A DNA stretch of 64,000 nucleotides, taken from Bacteroidota bacterium (GTDB lineage: Bacteria; Bacteroidota; Bacteroidia; Cytophagales; Cyclobacteriaceae). A program made the position numbers and the translations under genes. Positions 57,437-61,886 of this stretch are shown one piece after another. Under the pieces are notes generated by a model. The model did not search any database. It was not told the origin of the DNA and was given only the letters and a program-made list of their open reading frames with translations. The stretch is from contig VGMW01000005.1 in assembly GCA_016866235.1 (NCBI GenBank), positions 62,001-126,000 of the forward strand. Reading direction: 5' to 3'. Each line of letters starts with the position of its first letter. Positions within the stretch are counted from its first letter, which is position 1.

Positions 57437-59113
57437 TTATTGTCCAGCTCTTGCTGGTTGAATTACTCTTTTGGAAGCAAGGTTTTGTTTCCAGCCAGCG
57501 CCTCTGATGGCTCTTCCTGGAAATTTTCCTGTGTGTTCTCCGTTGTCCAAAACCTGGACCCCATTTACAAACACATGTTCCACCCCGCTGGCATAGGCGT
57601 GAGAATTTGAAAAGGTAGCGTTATCCCTTATGTTTTCCTGATCAAAAATTACGACGTCTGCATAGTGACCGGTTTTCAGAAGTCCACGCTTTTCAATTTG
57701 AAGGTTTGCTGCCGGAAGAGAAGTCATTCTTCTAATGGCTTCTTCAAGCGACATAATCTTTTCTTCCCGAACGTATTTACCGAGAAGTCTGGCAAAGCTA
57801 CCGTAGGCTCTGGGGTGGGTAGGGGATTCATTTTTAGGAGCTTCATTGGCAATACTTGCGGCATCGGAGCAAATGGATACGAATGGAAGTTTAAGCATCC
57901 GTTTCACATTGTCTTCTGAAATCAAAAAAAAGATGCAGGGAATTGGAAAAGAGGACTGATCTGCAATTATTAGACCTAGCATGGTCTCATCCGGGTTTTT
58001 TCCATGCAATCTTGAAATTTCATCCAACCTTTTATTCTGGTACAGTTCATTCAGGGAGTCTTTATGAAATGCAAGAATCAGTACGTCTCGTGGATCTGAA
58101 TTTTTTTGTGGGATTCCTAGTTCCAGATCTTTTAAAACTCGTTTTCTGATTTCAGGATCCTTTAAGCGTTTGCGCATGGCCGACATGCCTCCTTCTTGCA
58201 CCCAGGTTGGCAGCCTGGCAGTAAGGCCGGTGCCACTGGCATTATACGTGTACATGTTTGCGGTAATTTTTAATCCTGCTTTTTGTGCACTGTCTATCCG
58301 GTTAATAACTGTGTCAATTTTATTCCAGTTGCGTTCGTGGTTTATCTTAAGGTGATAGATCTCTGTTTTTATTTTAGCCTCATGGGCAATTCTGAAAGTT
58401 TCGGTCAACGCCGCCATTATTCGGTCACTCTCACTTCGCATGTGGGTAATGTACATACCGCCGTAAGAGGAGGCTACCTTTGCCAATTCGGTGAGTTCGC
58501 TGGTGGAGGCGTAGTCTGCAGGTGCATAAATTAAGGATGAGCCAAGACCGAATGCGCCTTCTTGCATGGCTTGCCGCACCAGATTTTTCATTTGCGTCAA
58601 TTCAGTTGGATTGGGAGCACGGTTTTCAGCGTTCAGGACGTACATCCTAACCTGGGTAGCGCCGACAAAAGATGCAATGTTTGGCGTCACACCTTTTTTT
58701 TCGGCATAGGTTAGGTACTGACCAAGGGTGGCCCAGCGCGTATCTTTTTTTCTCGGTTTGCGTGGGCCAGGAGACCAGCCTTCTCCGAAAATTTCTAGTG
58801 TGACACCTTGCTTGATGTCACTCATAGAGCGCCCGTCCTCCAGTAAAGCCTGGTCGGCCCAGCTAAGCATGTTAATAAAACCGGGCGAAATGGTTTTCCC
58901 CGATGCGTTAATCTCTTTTTTGGCAGATGTGTTCCTTAAATCACCAATGGCGGCGATGGTATCGCCTGATATGGCCAGGTCTGCCTTGAATCCCTCCGTT
59001 CCACTACCGTCAACAATGGTTCCGTTTTTTATGAGGATGTCATAAGTTGTTTGACCATGGCAGCTGCAAAGGATGAAAAGACAGACTATTGAAAGCGGGA
59101 TTTTTTTTCTCAC
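57437..59113 (-). CDS. D-aminoacylase-family lipoprotein with altered metal site
   Basis: A lipoprotein signal (ILCSC, cysteine at residue 18) is followed by an amidohydrolase-superfamily domain of the N-acyl-D-amino-acid deacylase group (558 residues). Histidines in MYITHMRSESD and EIYHLKINHE and the aspartate in SICSDAAS align with the zinc ligands and catalytic aspartate. The usual HxH motif is replaced by PGFINMLSWADQ. The GNCG cysteine segment is replaced by FGEGWS. The enzyme may bind a single metal or use a different site. The export signal puts it on the envelope. Confidence 0.85.
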   Translation of the reverse strand: MRKKIPLSIVCLFILCSCHGQTTYDILIKNGTIVDGSGTEGFKADLAISGDTIAAIGDLRNTSAKKEINASGKTISPGFINMLSWADQALLEDGRSMSDIKQGVTLEIFGEGWSPGPRKPRKKDTRWATLGQYLTYAEKKGVTPNIASFVGATQVRMYVLNAENRAPNPTELTQMKNLVRQAMQEGAFGLGSSLIYAPADYASTSELTELAKVASSYGGMYITHMRSESDRIMAALTETFRIAHEAKIKTEIYHLKINHERNWNKIDTVINRIDSAQKAGLKITANMYTYNASGTGLTARLPTWVQEGGMSAMRKRLKDPEIRKRVLKDLELGIPQKNSDPRDVLILAFHKDSLNELYQNKRLDEISRLHGKNPDETMLGLIIADQSSFPIPCIFFLISEDNVKRMLKLPFVSICSDAASIANEAPKNESPTHPRAYGSFARLLGKYVREEKIMSLEEAIRRMTSLPAANLQIEKRGLLKTGHYADVVIFDQENIRDNATFSNSHAYASGVEHVFVNGVQVLDNGEHTGKFPGRAIRGAGWKQNLASKRVIQPARAGQ

Positions 59114-59162
59114 GGGTTATTTAAGTTCAAAAGAATCATCAATCGAGCTTAAAAATAAACTC

Positions 59163-59185
59163 TTTCAGAAAATTTCTTTCTGAAA
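59163..59185. repeat. 9-bp inverted repeat
   Basis: TTTCAGAAA (59163-59171) and TTTCTGAAA (59177-59185) have a 5-nt spacer. They lie in the 255-bp gap between the aminoacylase start and the transposase end. This may be a regulatory site or a hairpin linked to the transposase. Confidence 0.45.
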
Positions 59186-59368
59186 AAGTGATTTAATGGT
59201 GAATATGTTGACTAAGGAACATGAAATGGTCTAAAATTCAGAGAAGTCTTTAGTCTGAATTGGAAACGTATAGAATTTTGGTAGGGGTATCAGTTTTGTT
59301 GATGGTTGTATAATTTGAAAATTTTGCTGTTGATCCTTTTTCCAAAATAATGATTAGGTATTTCGTGT

Positions 59369-59824
59369 TTAGGGATCAAACATGTATTTCTTATCGCGTT
59401 CTATTTTATCGGCATCAATAAATCTTTCATACTCAGTTTCCAAGGAATCCTTTCGATGGTGTTCTTCTTGTCTTGCTATATAGTTTATGATGGTTTTAAG
59501 GTTAGGGGCTCCGACCGAAAAGGCGCCATATCCTTTTTGCCACTCAAATCTCCCTTGAACCAACTTGTTTTCATTGATCCATCTTGATGAATTGGATTTA
59601 ATATCTCGGGCAATATCATCAATGCAGCAGGTAGTTTTGAGTCCTAATAGGATATGAATATGATTCGGCACTCCATTAATGATTATCATTTTCTGGTTTT
59701 TGTTGGTCACAATACCAGTGATGTATTTGTAAAGATCTGTTTTCCATTCCCTGTTAATAAGCGGAGCTCTATACTTGACAATGATCACCAGGTGCACATG
59801 AAGTTTTGAGTAAGTATTTGCCAT
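59369..59824 (-). CDS. IS200/IS605-like Y1 transposase, REP-associated type (RAYT)
   Basis: This single-strand transposase family acts on hairpins through one tyrosine. The HUH motif is H55-I-H57 (VPNHIHILLGL) and the likely nucleophile is Y115 (IINYIARQEEHHR). The N-terminus YSKLHVHLVIIVKYRAPL is typical. At 151 residues it is slightly longer than IS200 TnpA, and the C-terminus is charged. No TnpB is adjacent, and the upstream side is packed with palindromic repeats, which is the arrangement of REP-associated transposases rather than of an intact IS200. The gene appears complete. Confidence 0.87.
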   Translation of the reverse strand: MANTYSKLHVHLVIIVKYRAPLINREWKTDLYKYITGIVTNKNQKMIIINGVPNHIHILLGLKTTCCIDDIARDIKSNSSRWINENKLVQGRFEWQKGYGAFSVGAPNLKTIINYIARQEEHHRKDSLETEYERFIDADKIERDKKYMFDP

Positions 59825-60001
59825 ATCAGATTATATTTTTTCTTGAATGATTTCTGTTGTTCAACTTTCAAAGCTCAGTGCTATTCAGTGAAAATTGAGC
59901 TCTAGCTTATCCTTCAGATCATTACTTTAAGCCTACGACCTTGAAGATTATCACTTTAAAAGGTCTTATTACTTGTTTGACTCTAGCGGTGAGAACTTGA
60001 C

Positions 60002-60284
60002 GCTCCTGACGGAGCTCTTAGGGCTCTTTAGTGATATTAAGCTCCTGACGGAGCTCTTAGGGCTCTTTAGTGATATTAAGCTCCTGACGGAGCTCTTAGG
60101 GCTCTTAGTGATATAAAGCTCCTGACGGAGCTCTTAGGGCTCTTTAGTGTTATAAAGCTCCTGACGGAGCTCTTAGGGCTCTTAGTGATATAAAGCTTCT
60201 GACGGAGCTCTTATGGCTCTTTAGTGATATAAAGCTCCTGACGGAGCTCTCAGGGCTTTTTAGTGATATAAAGCTCCTGACGGT
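60002..60284. repeat. Tandem palindromic repeat array A (38-39 bp unit, seven copies and a partial)
   Basis: Units begin at 60002, 60041, 60080, 60118, 60157, 60195 and 60234, with a broken eighth at 60273. Each starts with the hairpin GCTCC-TGAC-GGAGC, then TCTTAGGGCTCTTTAGTG and a short A/T tail. Units at 60080 and 60157 lack one T. Copies differ at only a few positions, so the array is young or kept homogeneous. Confidence 0.92.
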
Positions 60285-60316
60285 GCCAATCTTGAATGGA
60301 GGCTTGTAGTTAATGG

Positions 60317-60514
60317 CACTTTCCTACTTCATGAGCGGCACCTTGGCGCTAGAGTATTGATTATCGCTTGGTTGGATTCAGCTCCGTCAGGAGCGGCACT
60401 TTGGCGCTAAAGTATTGGGTAGGGCCTGATTGGATTCAGCTCCGTCAGCAGCGGCACCTTGGTGCTAGAGTAGTGAGTAGTGCTTGGTTGGATTCAGCTC
60501 CGTCAGGAGCGGCA
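60317..60514. repeat. Tandem palindromic repeat array B (58-bp unit, inverted relative to A)
   Basis: Units begin at 60317 (first 16 bp degenerate), 60375, 60433 and 60491 (partial). Each carries the hairpin GCTCC-GTCA-GGAGC, the reverse complement of the array A core, followed by GGCACYTTGGYGCTARAGT. The array ends a few bases before the mnmE stop codon. Confidence 0.9.
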
Positions 60515-60521
60515 TATTTCC

Positions 60522-61886
60522 TCACTTTCCGATACAAAAACGACTGAATATCTGTTCGAGCAGGTCGTCTGAGGAAATGGTCCCGGTAAGCTCACCGAGG
60601 TGGTGTAAGGCCTCTCTTAAATCCTGTGCAAGTAAGTCACCGGAAACTTTTGTTTCCAAACCTTCTATGGCTCTTTGCAATGCGTCGCGGGTTGACCTTA
60701 ATCCTGCGTAATGTCGTGCGTTGGTCACCACAGTTTCACCTGGTCGTATGGTCATATCTCCAAAAAGCTCAACCACTCGATTCTTTAGGAGTTCAATGTT
60801 TAATCCCGATTTGGCTGAAATGCAGACAAAGCCCTTGCTTTCAAGCCATGCTAGGTTTTCCACCTTGGCCTGATCAGCTTTACTTCCAATCAATAAGACA
60901 GGAATCTTGTACGCTTTTGCTTCCTTGATCTCATTTTCAACGACCTGCAAATCTAAATTCGACGCATCCACCAGGTACAGAATCAATGAGGCCAGCTTCA
61001 TTTGCTCCTTGGTTCTGGAAACGCCAATGGCCTCAATGGGATCGTCCGTTTCCCGAAGTCCGGCAGTATCCATAAAGCGTAACGTGAGTCCACCCATATG
61101 AACCACGTCCTCAATGACATCGCGGGTTGTTCCGGGAATCTCTGAAACGATGGCACGTTCCTCATTGAGCAATGCATTGAGTAAAGTTGATTTTCCTGCA
61201 TTGGGTCTTCCCGCGATCACAGTTCTTACTCCGTTTCGGATCACATTACCGCGATCAAAGGAATCAATCAATGGCTCAATCTTTTGAAGCAAAGCCCTGA
61301 GCATATCTTTTAATACATCGCGACGAGCAAACTCAACATCCTCCTCACTAAAATCCAATTCCAGTTCAATCAAAGAAACAAAACTGATCAGTTGTTCTCT
61401 GAGAACTGCTAATTCTTTTGAAAATCCACCTTTAATCTGATTTAACGCTGTGAGTCTGGCGCTCTCATTTTCGGCATGAATTAAGTCTGCAACCCCTTCT
61501 GCCTGGGTGAGATCCAGTTTCCCATTTAAAAATGCTCGACGGGTAAATTCACCAGCCTGCGCGGGTCTGGCTCCTCTGCGGATAAGTGCCTTAATTATTC
61601 CGGTCGCAATAAGTGGTGATCCATGGCAGGATATTTCAATGGAATCTTCCCCAGTATAAGAATGAGGAGCACGAAACAAGGATACGAGCACCTCATCCAA
61701 TACGCTGTCTTTCTCGTAAAGTTTTCCGTAATGAATGGTATTTCCTGCCTCGCCACCCAACTCCTTTCCTCTAAACATTCCAGATACTATCGATATGGCA
61801 TCCGGACCTGAAAGTCTGACCACCGCCAGAGCACTGACACCTGTGGGTGTTGCTAAGGCTGTAATGGTGTCGTTATGATGGCTCAT
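60522..61886 (-). CDS. mnmE: tRNA modification GTPase MnmE
   Basis: With MnmG, MnmE installs the carboxymethylaminomethyl group on wobble uridine. An N-terminal folate-binding domain, a helical domain and the inserted G domain are seen, with G1 GRPNAGKSTLLN, G2/G3 PGTTRDVIED and DTAGLRETDD, G4 GSKAD and the conserved C-terminal FCIGK. The 454 residues are complete. Its start overlaps the DUF423 gene end by 14 bp. It works in the same wobble-uridine pathway as MnmA, encoded at 23566. Confidence 0.96.
   Translation of the reverse strand: MSHHNDTITALATPTGVSALAVVRLSGPDAISIVSGMFRGKELGGEAGNTIHYGKLYEKDSVLDEVLVSLFRAPHSYTGEDSIEISCHGSPLIATGIIKALIRRGARPAQAGEFTRRAFLNGKLDLTQAEGVADLIHAENESARLTALNQIKGGFSKELAVLREQLISFVSLIELELDFSEEDVEFARRDVLKDMLRALLQKIEPLIDSFDRGNVIRNGVRTVIAGRPNAGKSTLLNALLNEERAIVSEIPGTTRDVIEDVVHMGGLTLRFMDTAGLRETDDPIEAIGVSRTKEQMKLASLILYLVDASNLDLQVVENEIKEAKAYKIPVLLIGSKADQAKVENLAWLESKGFVCISAKSGLNIELLKNRVVELFGDMTIRPGETVVTNARHYAGLRSTRDALQRAIEGLETKVSGDLLAQDLREALHHLGELTGTISSDDLLEQIFSRFCIGK

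Follow-up and report, generated by a model that had tools for sequence, protein, structure and literature searches.

The transposase gene and its hairpin block

We analyzed a window of 64,000 nucleotides (nt) from a Cyclobacteriaceae genome (contig VGMW01000005.1 of assembly GCA_016866235.1), in which a Y1 (HUH) transposase gene, P0001, stands beside a block of repeated hairpins. The gene occupies positions 59369..59824 on the minus strand and encodes 151 amino acids (aa) with the signature of subclass 1.2 (NHIH, WQ and YIARQEEHH), and the block spans 60002-60510 and holds 11 hairpins, degenerate ones included. P0001 matches the Pfam family PF01797 (Y1_Tnp; 2.7e-27) and carries N54-H-I-H57 (H55/H57) and Y115, which confirms the first-pass annotation of this DNA as encoding a Y1 transposase with an HUH motif and Y115. 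That annotation also reported no TnpB, and no TnpB-like gene was found in the six neighbouring open reading frames (ORFs) scanned, the remainder of the genome not being searched for TnpB.

Residues 115-123 (YIARQEEHH) contain the Y-x3-Q-x2-HH motif of subclass 1.2, which is present in 149 of 155 relatives with a median length of 153 aa (n = 155). Throughout an alignment of 48 proteins, the window protein included, Y115, Q119, H122 and H123 are unchanged, and a conserved stretch follows at the C-terminus (E131 invariant; F128, Y132 and L136 conserved in at least 90%). The motifs of P0001 place it in subclass 1.2 of the IS200-like class, and its length, copy number and conserved residues agree with this assignment. 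The NCBIfam model for IS200/IS605 transposases names P0001 (73.1 bits against a cut-off of 55) and matches all 48 aligned proteins at E <= 0.001. The first-pass annotation had placed the protein among the REP-associated tyrosine transposases (RAYTs; REP, repetitive extragenic palindrome). We do not regard it as a classical RAYT, because it scores 21.4 bits with the NCBIfam model REP_Tyr_transpos, below the cut-off of 80, because its tyrosine motif is YxxxQxxHH, and because GTAG is missing from the 5' foot of the hairpins; subclass 1.2 takes the place of that label. The same model matches 36 of the 48 aligned proteins at E <= 0.001 (best 1.3e-9), figures that are E-values and not bits set against the cut-off.

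Read on either strand, the hairpin core GCTCC-GTCA-GGAGC is exact in eight copies, has one mismatch in two and two mismatches in one, in line with the earlier count of at least eleven copies with partials (8 exact, 3 degenerate). The near array (60002..60286, minus strand) consists of eight hairpins spaced 38-39 nt apart (six exact, one with one mismatch, one with two) and forms a repeat with a 39-nt period (7.3 units, 60002-60283, 94% matches); its loop reads GTCA on the transposase strand, and the side of the 3' flank, which we call the tag, lies towards the transposase. The far array (60329..60514, plus strand) has the opposite orientation, with its tag side towards the host gene mnmE, and contains three hairpins at 60381, 60439 and 60497, the middle one mismatched, in a 58-nt period (3.2 units, 85% matches) that begins with a degenerate partial unit. 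The flank of the outermost hairpin, GGCATATTT (60511..60519, plus strand), ends 2 nt short of the mnmE stop codon and resembles sequences that flank GCTCC hairpins in relatives (GATATTATT, GACATGTTC and GGTATTTTA). At the 5' foot, the 11 window copies and the consensus sequences of the other loci show, by eye, flanks other than GTAG or GTGG. A single-stranded 39-nt unit folds into the hairpin alone with -5.2 kcal/mol, and 3 of 200 shuffled sequences folded equally well.

The block is bordered by mnmE (60522..61886, minus strand; stop codon at 60522-60524), and the outermost hairpin ends 11 nt ahead of that stop codon; on the other side lies a gene of the amidohydrolase family (57437..59113, minus strand). 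From 30 genomes of the genus we kept 20 mnmE loci, our own and 19 others. Downstream of mnmE in these 19 relatives we saw neither a transposase nor a repeated hairpin (three have less than 400 nt of flank), and since the enzyme and the hairpins are both absent, the gene and the block were probably gained together. One border of the element is suggested beside mnmE; the mnmE genes of the 19 relatives are just 56-59% identical to ours, and these genomes are therefore too distant for a base-by-base empty site.

Hairpin families within and between genomes

The 2.77-Mb genome contains GCTCC-N4-GGAGC nine times, eight of them in the block (reversed control pattern, 4), and AGCTCCGTCAGGAGC occurs with at most one mismatch at ten places, all ten in the block, so that the block is beyond chance. 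With two mismatches there are three places outside it, and with three mismatches there are many, with genome totals of 37 and 38 per strand against 24 and 23 for controls. Every place with at most one mismatch being inside the block, we ruled out that the window hairpin is a dispersed REP in this genome. The first-pass annotation had expected dispersed copies and had named a strictly local hairpin beforehand as the result that refutes its proposal, and for this hairpin the copies are local only.

The genome has two Y1 enzymes, 41% identical and the only two Y1_Tnp matches there, and no multiple near-identical insertion sequence (IS) copies. The second enzyme, on contig C6, goes with a different family, GGTCCC-N3-GGGACC, with 48 copies against 1 for the control, and the highest count in the other 195 genomes of the family is 3. 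Its arrays are located on C3, C6, C9 and C10, and the separate distributions of GGTCCC and GCTCC indicate that each enzyme has its own hairpin family, one of the two having spread. The arrays on C3 and at the two inner sites of C9 are situated between ORFs of 90 aa or more; that all of them are intergenic was only partly borne out, as the C10 array overlaps a mechanically called ORF of 117 aa. The array at the end of C6 (C6:196653-196751) continues at the start of C9 (C9:1-273), so the assembly is probably broken at the repeats and the two contigs may be neighbours. A further array on C9 (L177:7276-8480) has a higher-order period of about 228 nt with about three GGTCCC hairpins in each period.

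Presence of a P0001 relative is patchy, at 125 of the 196 family genomes. Where both flanks are complete, at least three copies of one hairpin surround the gene at 68 of 91 loci, and at least three are found near the gene at 30 of 43 loci compared with 0 of 43 in distant control windows. Counted by stem and loop length within 1.5 kb, at least three copies are present at 92 and at least two at 121 of 130 loci with full flanks; in this count and in the loop tally below, tandem genes, which have overlapping flanks, contribute additional rows. The loci of the named relatives are the best 80 of 130 found and include no cyanobacterial record. Their records carry names from Planctomycetota, Verrucomicrobiota, Chlamydiota and Acidobacteriota besides Bacteroidota, and as many of these records are metagenome-assembled genomes, some phylum names may be binning errors. 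Two loci carry tandem transposase copies with hairpins between them, three copies with a period of 916 bp at L144 (G172:C1:281253-283537) and two with a period of 878 bp at L170 (G146:C17:12942-14272), and both are local amplifications of the whole unit.

To compare the hairpins with the protein phylogeny, we used 148 of the 155 proteins (leaving aside additional tandem copies and proteins of odd length) and labelled the 100 whose loci have at least three copies of a hairpin. These carry 26 stem types, which require 33 changes on the protein tree, whereas shuffled labels require 66.4 on average and never fewer than 61 in 200 trials. Enzyme and stem thus broadly co-vary, although not for every stem group. 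The nearest relative of the window protein (L012, 54%) also has GCTCC stems, with the loop AGA, and the two do not form a joint clade in the tree.

The stem by itself is of no use as a marker: GCTCC-N3-5-GGAGC is present in 194 of the 196 family genomes. One of these, G007, has 27 such places (control 5; L218 and L220 among them), scattered and with mixed loops, and has no P0001 relative at E <= 0.001, yet three other Y1_Tnp matches. These places are perhaps terminators or chance. In G088, whose enzyme is 52% identical, GCTCC hairpins form clusters at C1:2051293-2051670 and C8:170662-171305, and three more isolated places have no tag.

Loops are of restricted type, and a conserved tag is often present on one side of the hairpin. 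Among triloops, 514 of 522 copies fit R-N-M in one direction or the other, compared with 67 of 134 chance hairpins. With the copies oriented by R-N-M, 107 of 545 have TTTRTAG no more than 22 nt away on the 3' side and 2 have it on the opposite side; it begins 5-8 nt from the hairpin foot. Read on the opposite strand, the loop is K-N-Y and the tag lies 5'. A clean rule for tetraloops was dropped, because neither GNNA nor RNNM describes 53 of the 116 loops of four bases (L144, L150 and L065 included). GNA and GNNA loops are reminiscent of very stable DNA mini-hairpins. With extra tandem copies excluded and loops that fit R-N-M both ways scored as forward, the nearest upstream copy has its tag towards the gene at 57 of 66 loci (5 opposite, 4 unclear) and the nearest downstream copy at 56 of 76 (14 opposite, 6 unclear), and hairpins flank the gene on both sides at 52 of 88 loci. 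The earlier suggestion that loop and flanks are candidates for recognition is consistent with these patterns, for one flank.

This orientation bears on the view that the hairpins are RNA elements unrelated to DNA processing, either terminators or 3'-end stabilizers of mnmE or controls on translation of the transposase. We consider it very improbable. The outermost hairpin is indeed just 11 nt from the mnmE stop codon, terminator-like sites number three against a shuffled mean of 1.1, and the nearest upstream hairpin is at most 30 nt from the transposase start codon at 20 of the 66 related loci with an upstream copy, where it could affect translation. However, only these three sites are flagged where there are 11 hairpins, we saw no repeated hairpin next to mnmE in the 19 relatives, and neither the gene-facing orientation nor co-variation with the protein is expected of an RNA element. 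An Rfam-type element was dropped as a candidate, Rfam giving no match at E <= 1 within 59000-61000.

Dispersal was measured with the stem GGTGC (GGTGC-N3-4-GCACC), for which counts were made in 46 of the 80 named genomes, where cognate hairpins, when dispersed, reach up to 75 copies. Ten genomes with PVC (Planctomycetes-Verrucomicrobia-Chlamydiae), Acidobacteriota or Chlamydiota names, several of them GC-rich with high controls, were excluded before the comparison (among them G220, with 68 against a control of 14, and G240, with 49 against 50), leaving 36. The median excess over control is 12 in the 24 genomes with at least two GGTGC hairpins beside the enzyme and 3.5 in the 12 with another stem (Mann-Whitney p 0.0025), and 10 of the 24 have at least ten non-local copies. 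Three of the 12 reach an excess of at least 10, and two of these (L103, L085) are inside the GGTGC clade. The genome G200 has eight inverted pairs, spread over seven contigs, that make up elements of 144-183 bp with different outer flanks and no gene, each consisting of tag, GGTGC hairpin, spacer, tag, GCGGC hairpin, spacer and then the mirror image; this is a REPIN-like plan (REPIN, REP doublet forming a hairpin). They come from 12 stretches picked from the listed places, of which eight pairs were aligned and L184, L189, L191 and L192 have other arrangements; in the pair L188 one inner hairpin is incomplete. At L189 (571-740), a hairpin stands 11 nt ahead of the transposase start codon, and in an upstream copy a hairpin is followed by an apparent remnant of the gene start.

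These dispersed units argue against a decayed or ordinary IS200-type IS whose end hairpins were multiplied by slippage at one site, the enzyme having no special repeat partner. Such an origin is unlikely, though it agrees with the fit of the IS200/IS605 model to P0001 and to all 48 aligned proteins, with the confinement of the window hairpins to their locus, with the head-to-tail arrays of regular period and with tandem transposase copies such as L144 and L170. It does not lead one to expect gene-free hairpin pairs in G200, separate arrays in our own genome, or single, diverged enzyme copies there, and the stem differs from enzyme to enzyme while the class of loop stays the same and flanks of similar sequence reappear.

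The enzyme is present in 14 of 15 family genomes with at least four tagged sites (Fisher p 0.012), a figure that is not independent because the tag pattern was chosen from loci in some of the same genomes. In G169, two tagged arrays enclose a defence pair resembling AbiEi/AbiEii (L213:2981-6496; G169:C1:689980-693495; PADLOC 7e-88 and 1.6e-71), which is possibly cargo moved in trans. At E <= 1e-10, relatives of P0001 occur in 2 of 72,556 plasmid records and in 0 of 50,697 phage records. The two plasmid relatives, a later check on loci absent from the counts above, have four GTTGC hairpins with loops AGC and AGA, two of them adjoined by TTTGTAG (L251), and one ATGGGT hairpin on each side in inverted orientation, two copies only (L252). 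Low copy number, the rarity on plasmids and phages and the enclosed AbiE pair would suit an enzyme and arrays kept for host benefit (regulation, handling of single-stranded DNA or defence), with the spread of hairpins a by-product. We hold this to be the least probable of the readings, given the patchy presence, the absence from this site in relatives and a cargo seen in a single case without a systematic search.

A probable RAYT-like pair and its proposed working

We regard the locus, with good though not full confidence, as a RAYT-like pair of a lineage apart from the known RAYTs, in which a TnpA_Y1 enzyme of subclass 1.2 is partnered by cognate hairpins. It is best read as the local-only end of that lineage's range, with the anatomy of a RAYT system but not the RAYT family by sequence. 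The first-pass proposal that a Y1 enzyme has palindromes of its own as partners is supported by the repeated hairpins that flank the relatives, mostly face the gene and broadly follow the protein tree. Its proposed search for the hairpin across genomes succeeded in part, since cognate hairpins are dispersed in some genomes and the window hairpin stayed local in its own.

The data show the anatomy, the association, the orientation, the co-variation of stem and protein clade, the dispersal in some genomes and the joint absence beside mnmE in relatives; we infer binding, cleavage and copying, as well as the strand used and dimerization of the enzyme, and propose the following. The hairpin would fold when its strand is single, as on the lagging-strand template, and an enzyme dimer would read the stem, which is short and perfect, together with the restricted loop and the tag beside it. 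Y115 would nick near the hairpin and the strands would then be rejoined, so that hairpin units are copied or moved, most often forming arrays adjacent to the gene but, in some genomes, dispersed paired (REPIN-like) units, while the transposase gene itself would remain at low copy number. The window block might then be one expanded inverted pair, tags outward, still at its birthplace.

Several observations weigh against this interpretation. All window copies lie upstream of the transposase gene with both orientations present, the flank of the near array has diverged, and no copies of the window hairpin are dispersed beyond chance in its own genome. Among relatives, 38 of the 130 loci have fewer than three hairpin copies, TTTRTAG is found at only 38 of 99 loci, 14 of the 24 GGTGC-type genomes have fewer than ten non-local copies, and G169 has 16 tagged sites and no Y1_Tnp (PF01797) match. 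The plasmid relative L251 has all of its four hairpins upstream, with the tag of the nearest one pointing away from the gene. The stem label GCCGC (5 rows, 5 changes) is not clustered beyond shuffles, nor are the two-row groups GCTCC, GATCC, GCGGC and TGGGC clustered on the tree. Stems would also follow the tree if gene and flank were simply inherited together, and the growth of arrays could be plain replication slippage.

To a wider proposal we give an even chance: that subclass 1.2, within the Y1 family and on its IS200 side, is a RAYT-like lineage in its own right, with REPs and REPINs of its own across Bacteroidota and, judging from flanking hairpins alone, the PVC group. Recognition would rely on a loop of constant class (R-N-M or R-N-N-M, which the opposite strand reads as K-N-Y in the first case) and a TTTRTAG-type tag, the stem being free to diverge and to set enzyme specificity, and arrays may mobilize cargo in trans, as with the AbiE pair of G169. 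If true, the Y1 family gave rise to RAYT-like pairs on more than one of its branches, and did so in phyla with few descriptions of them, and the IS200/IS605 transposase names on records in these phyla may mislead. Because there are many natural enzyme-hairpin pairs with different stems, a recognition code for folded single-stranded DNA could be tested by swapping partners.

Comparison with known systems

In fold and sequence class, P0001 is closest to the IS200/IS605 transposases (IS608, ISDra2). The window genome differs from those systems in having no multiple near-identical IS copies, and the locus has many hairpins where an IS has one per end and no TnpB among the six neighbouring ORFs. 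The class 3 TnpA_Y1 proteins of Planctomycetes, Acidobacteria and Proteobacteria, 24 in the published set, share atypical gene-flanking hairpins and a Y----Q-type motif, but their description (PMC6006769) gives a hairpin foot CnGA and a 155-residue profile.

With the RAYT/TnpA_REP systems and their REPs, REPINs and BIMEs (bacterial interspersed mosaic elements; Nunvar 2010, PMC2817692; Corneloup 2021, PMC8266576), the locus type shares a Y1 enzyme, flanking palindromes that mostly face the gene, one palindrome family per enzyme, co-variation and paired dispersed units. The REP of S. maltophilia has GTAG at its 5' side and the triloop GCT, and changing the loop to AGC severely impaired cleavage (PMC8266576). 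Its polarity equals that of the K-N-Y loop with a 5' tag found here, which suggests by analogy which strand may be read. The differences are another protein class and tyrosine motif (the class 2 motif ends in NP in Table 1 of PMC6006769, the window protein having YIARQEEHH), a foot without GTAG and with a flank such as AYATNTTTATAG instead, and copy numbers in the tens where hairpins are dispersed, the window hairpin not being dispersed at all.

That such a system is little described in Bacteroidota, as first suggested, agrees with our literature search: no publication pairing subclass 1.2 with hairpins was found in titles and the openings of abstracts, a coverage outside which most subscription literature lies. 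CGTC-tagged repeats are reported in Bacteroidetes in one paper (PMC3733652), and RepRanger (PMC12306157) counts REPs in three Bacteroidota genomes, its main text mentioning neither RAYTs nor a transposase.

Subclass 1.2 itself entered the literature as an IS200-like group without IS properties, and the survey that describes it (Quentin et al. 2018, PMC6006769) lists no REP for it and describes it as generally without the typical terminal secondary structures of IS200. The proteins studied here resemble it in the Y---Q--HH motif, a length of about 150 aa, the conserved C-terminal stretch, low copy number in our own genome and occurrence in Bacteroidetes, and differ in the repeated hairpins at most members, where the published description has none. 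That the survey lists no REP is a description and not a definition, so the description changes and the membership stays, and the most fitting place for the locus is subclass 1.2, now seen with a hairpin partner.
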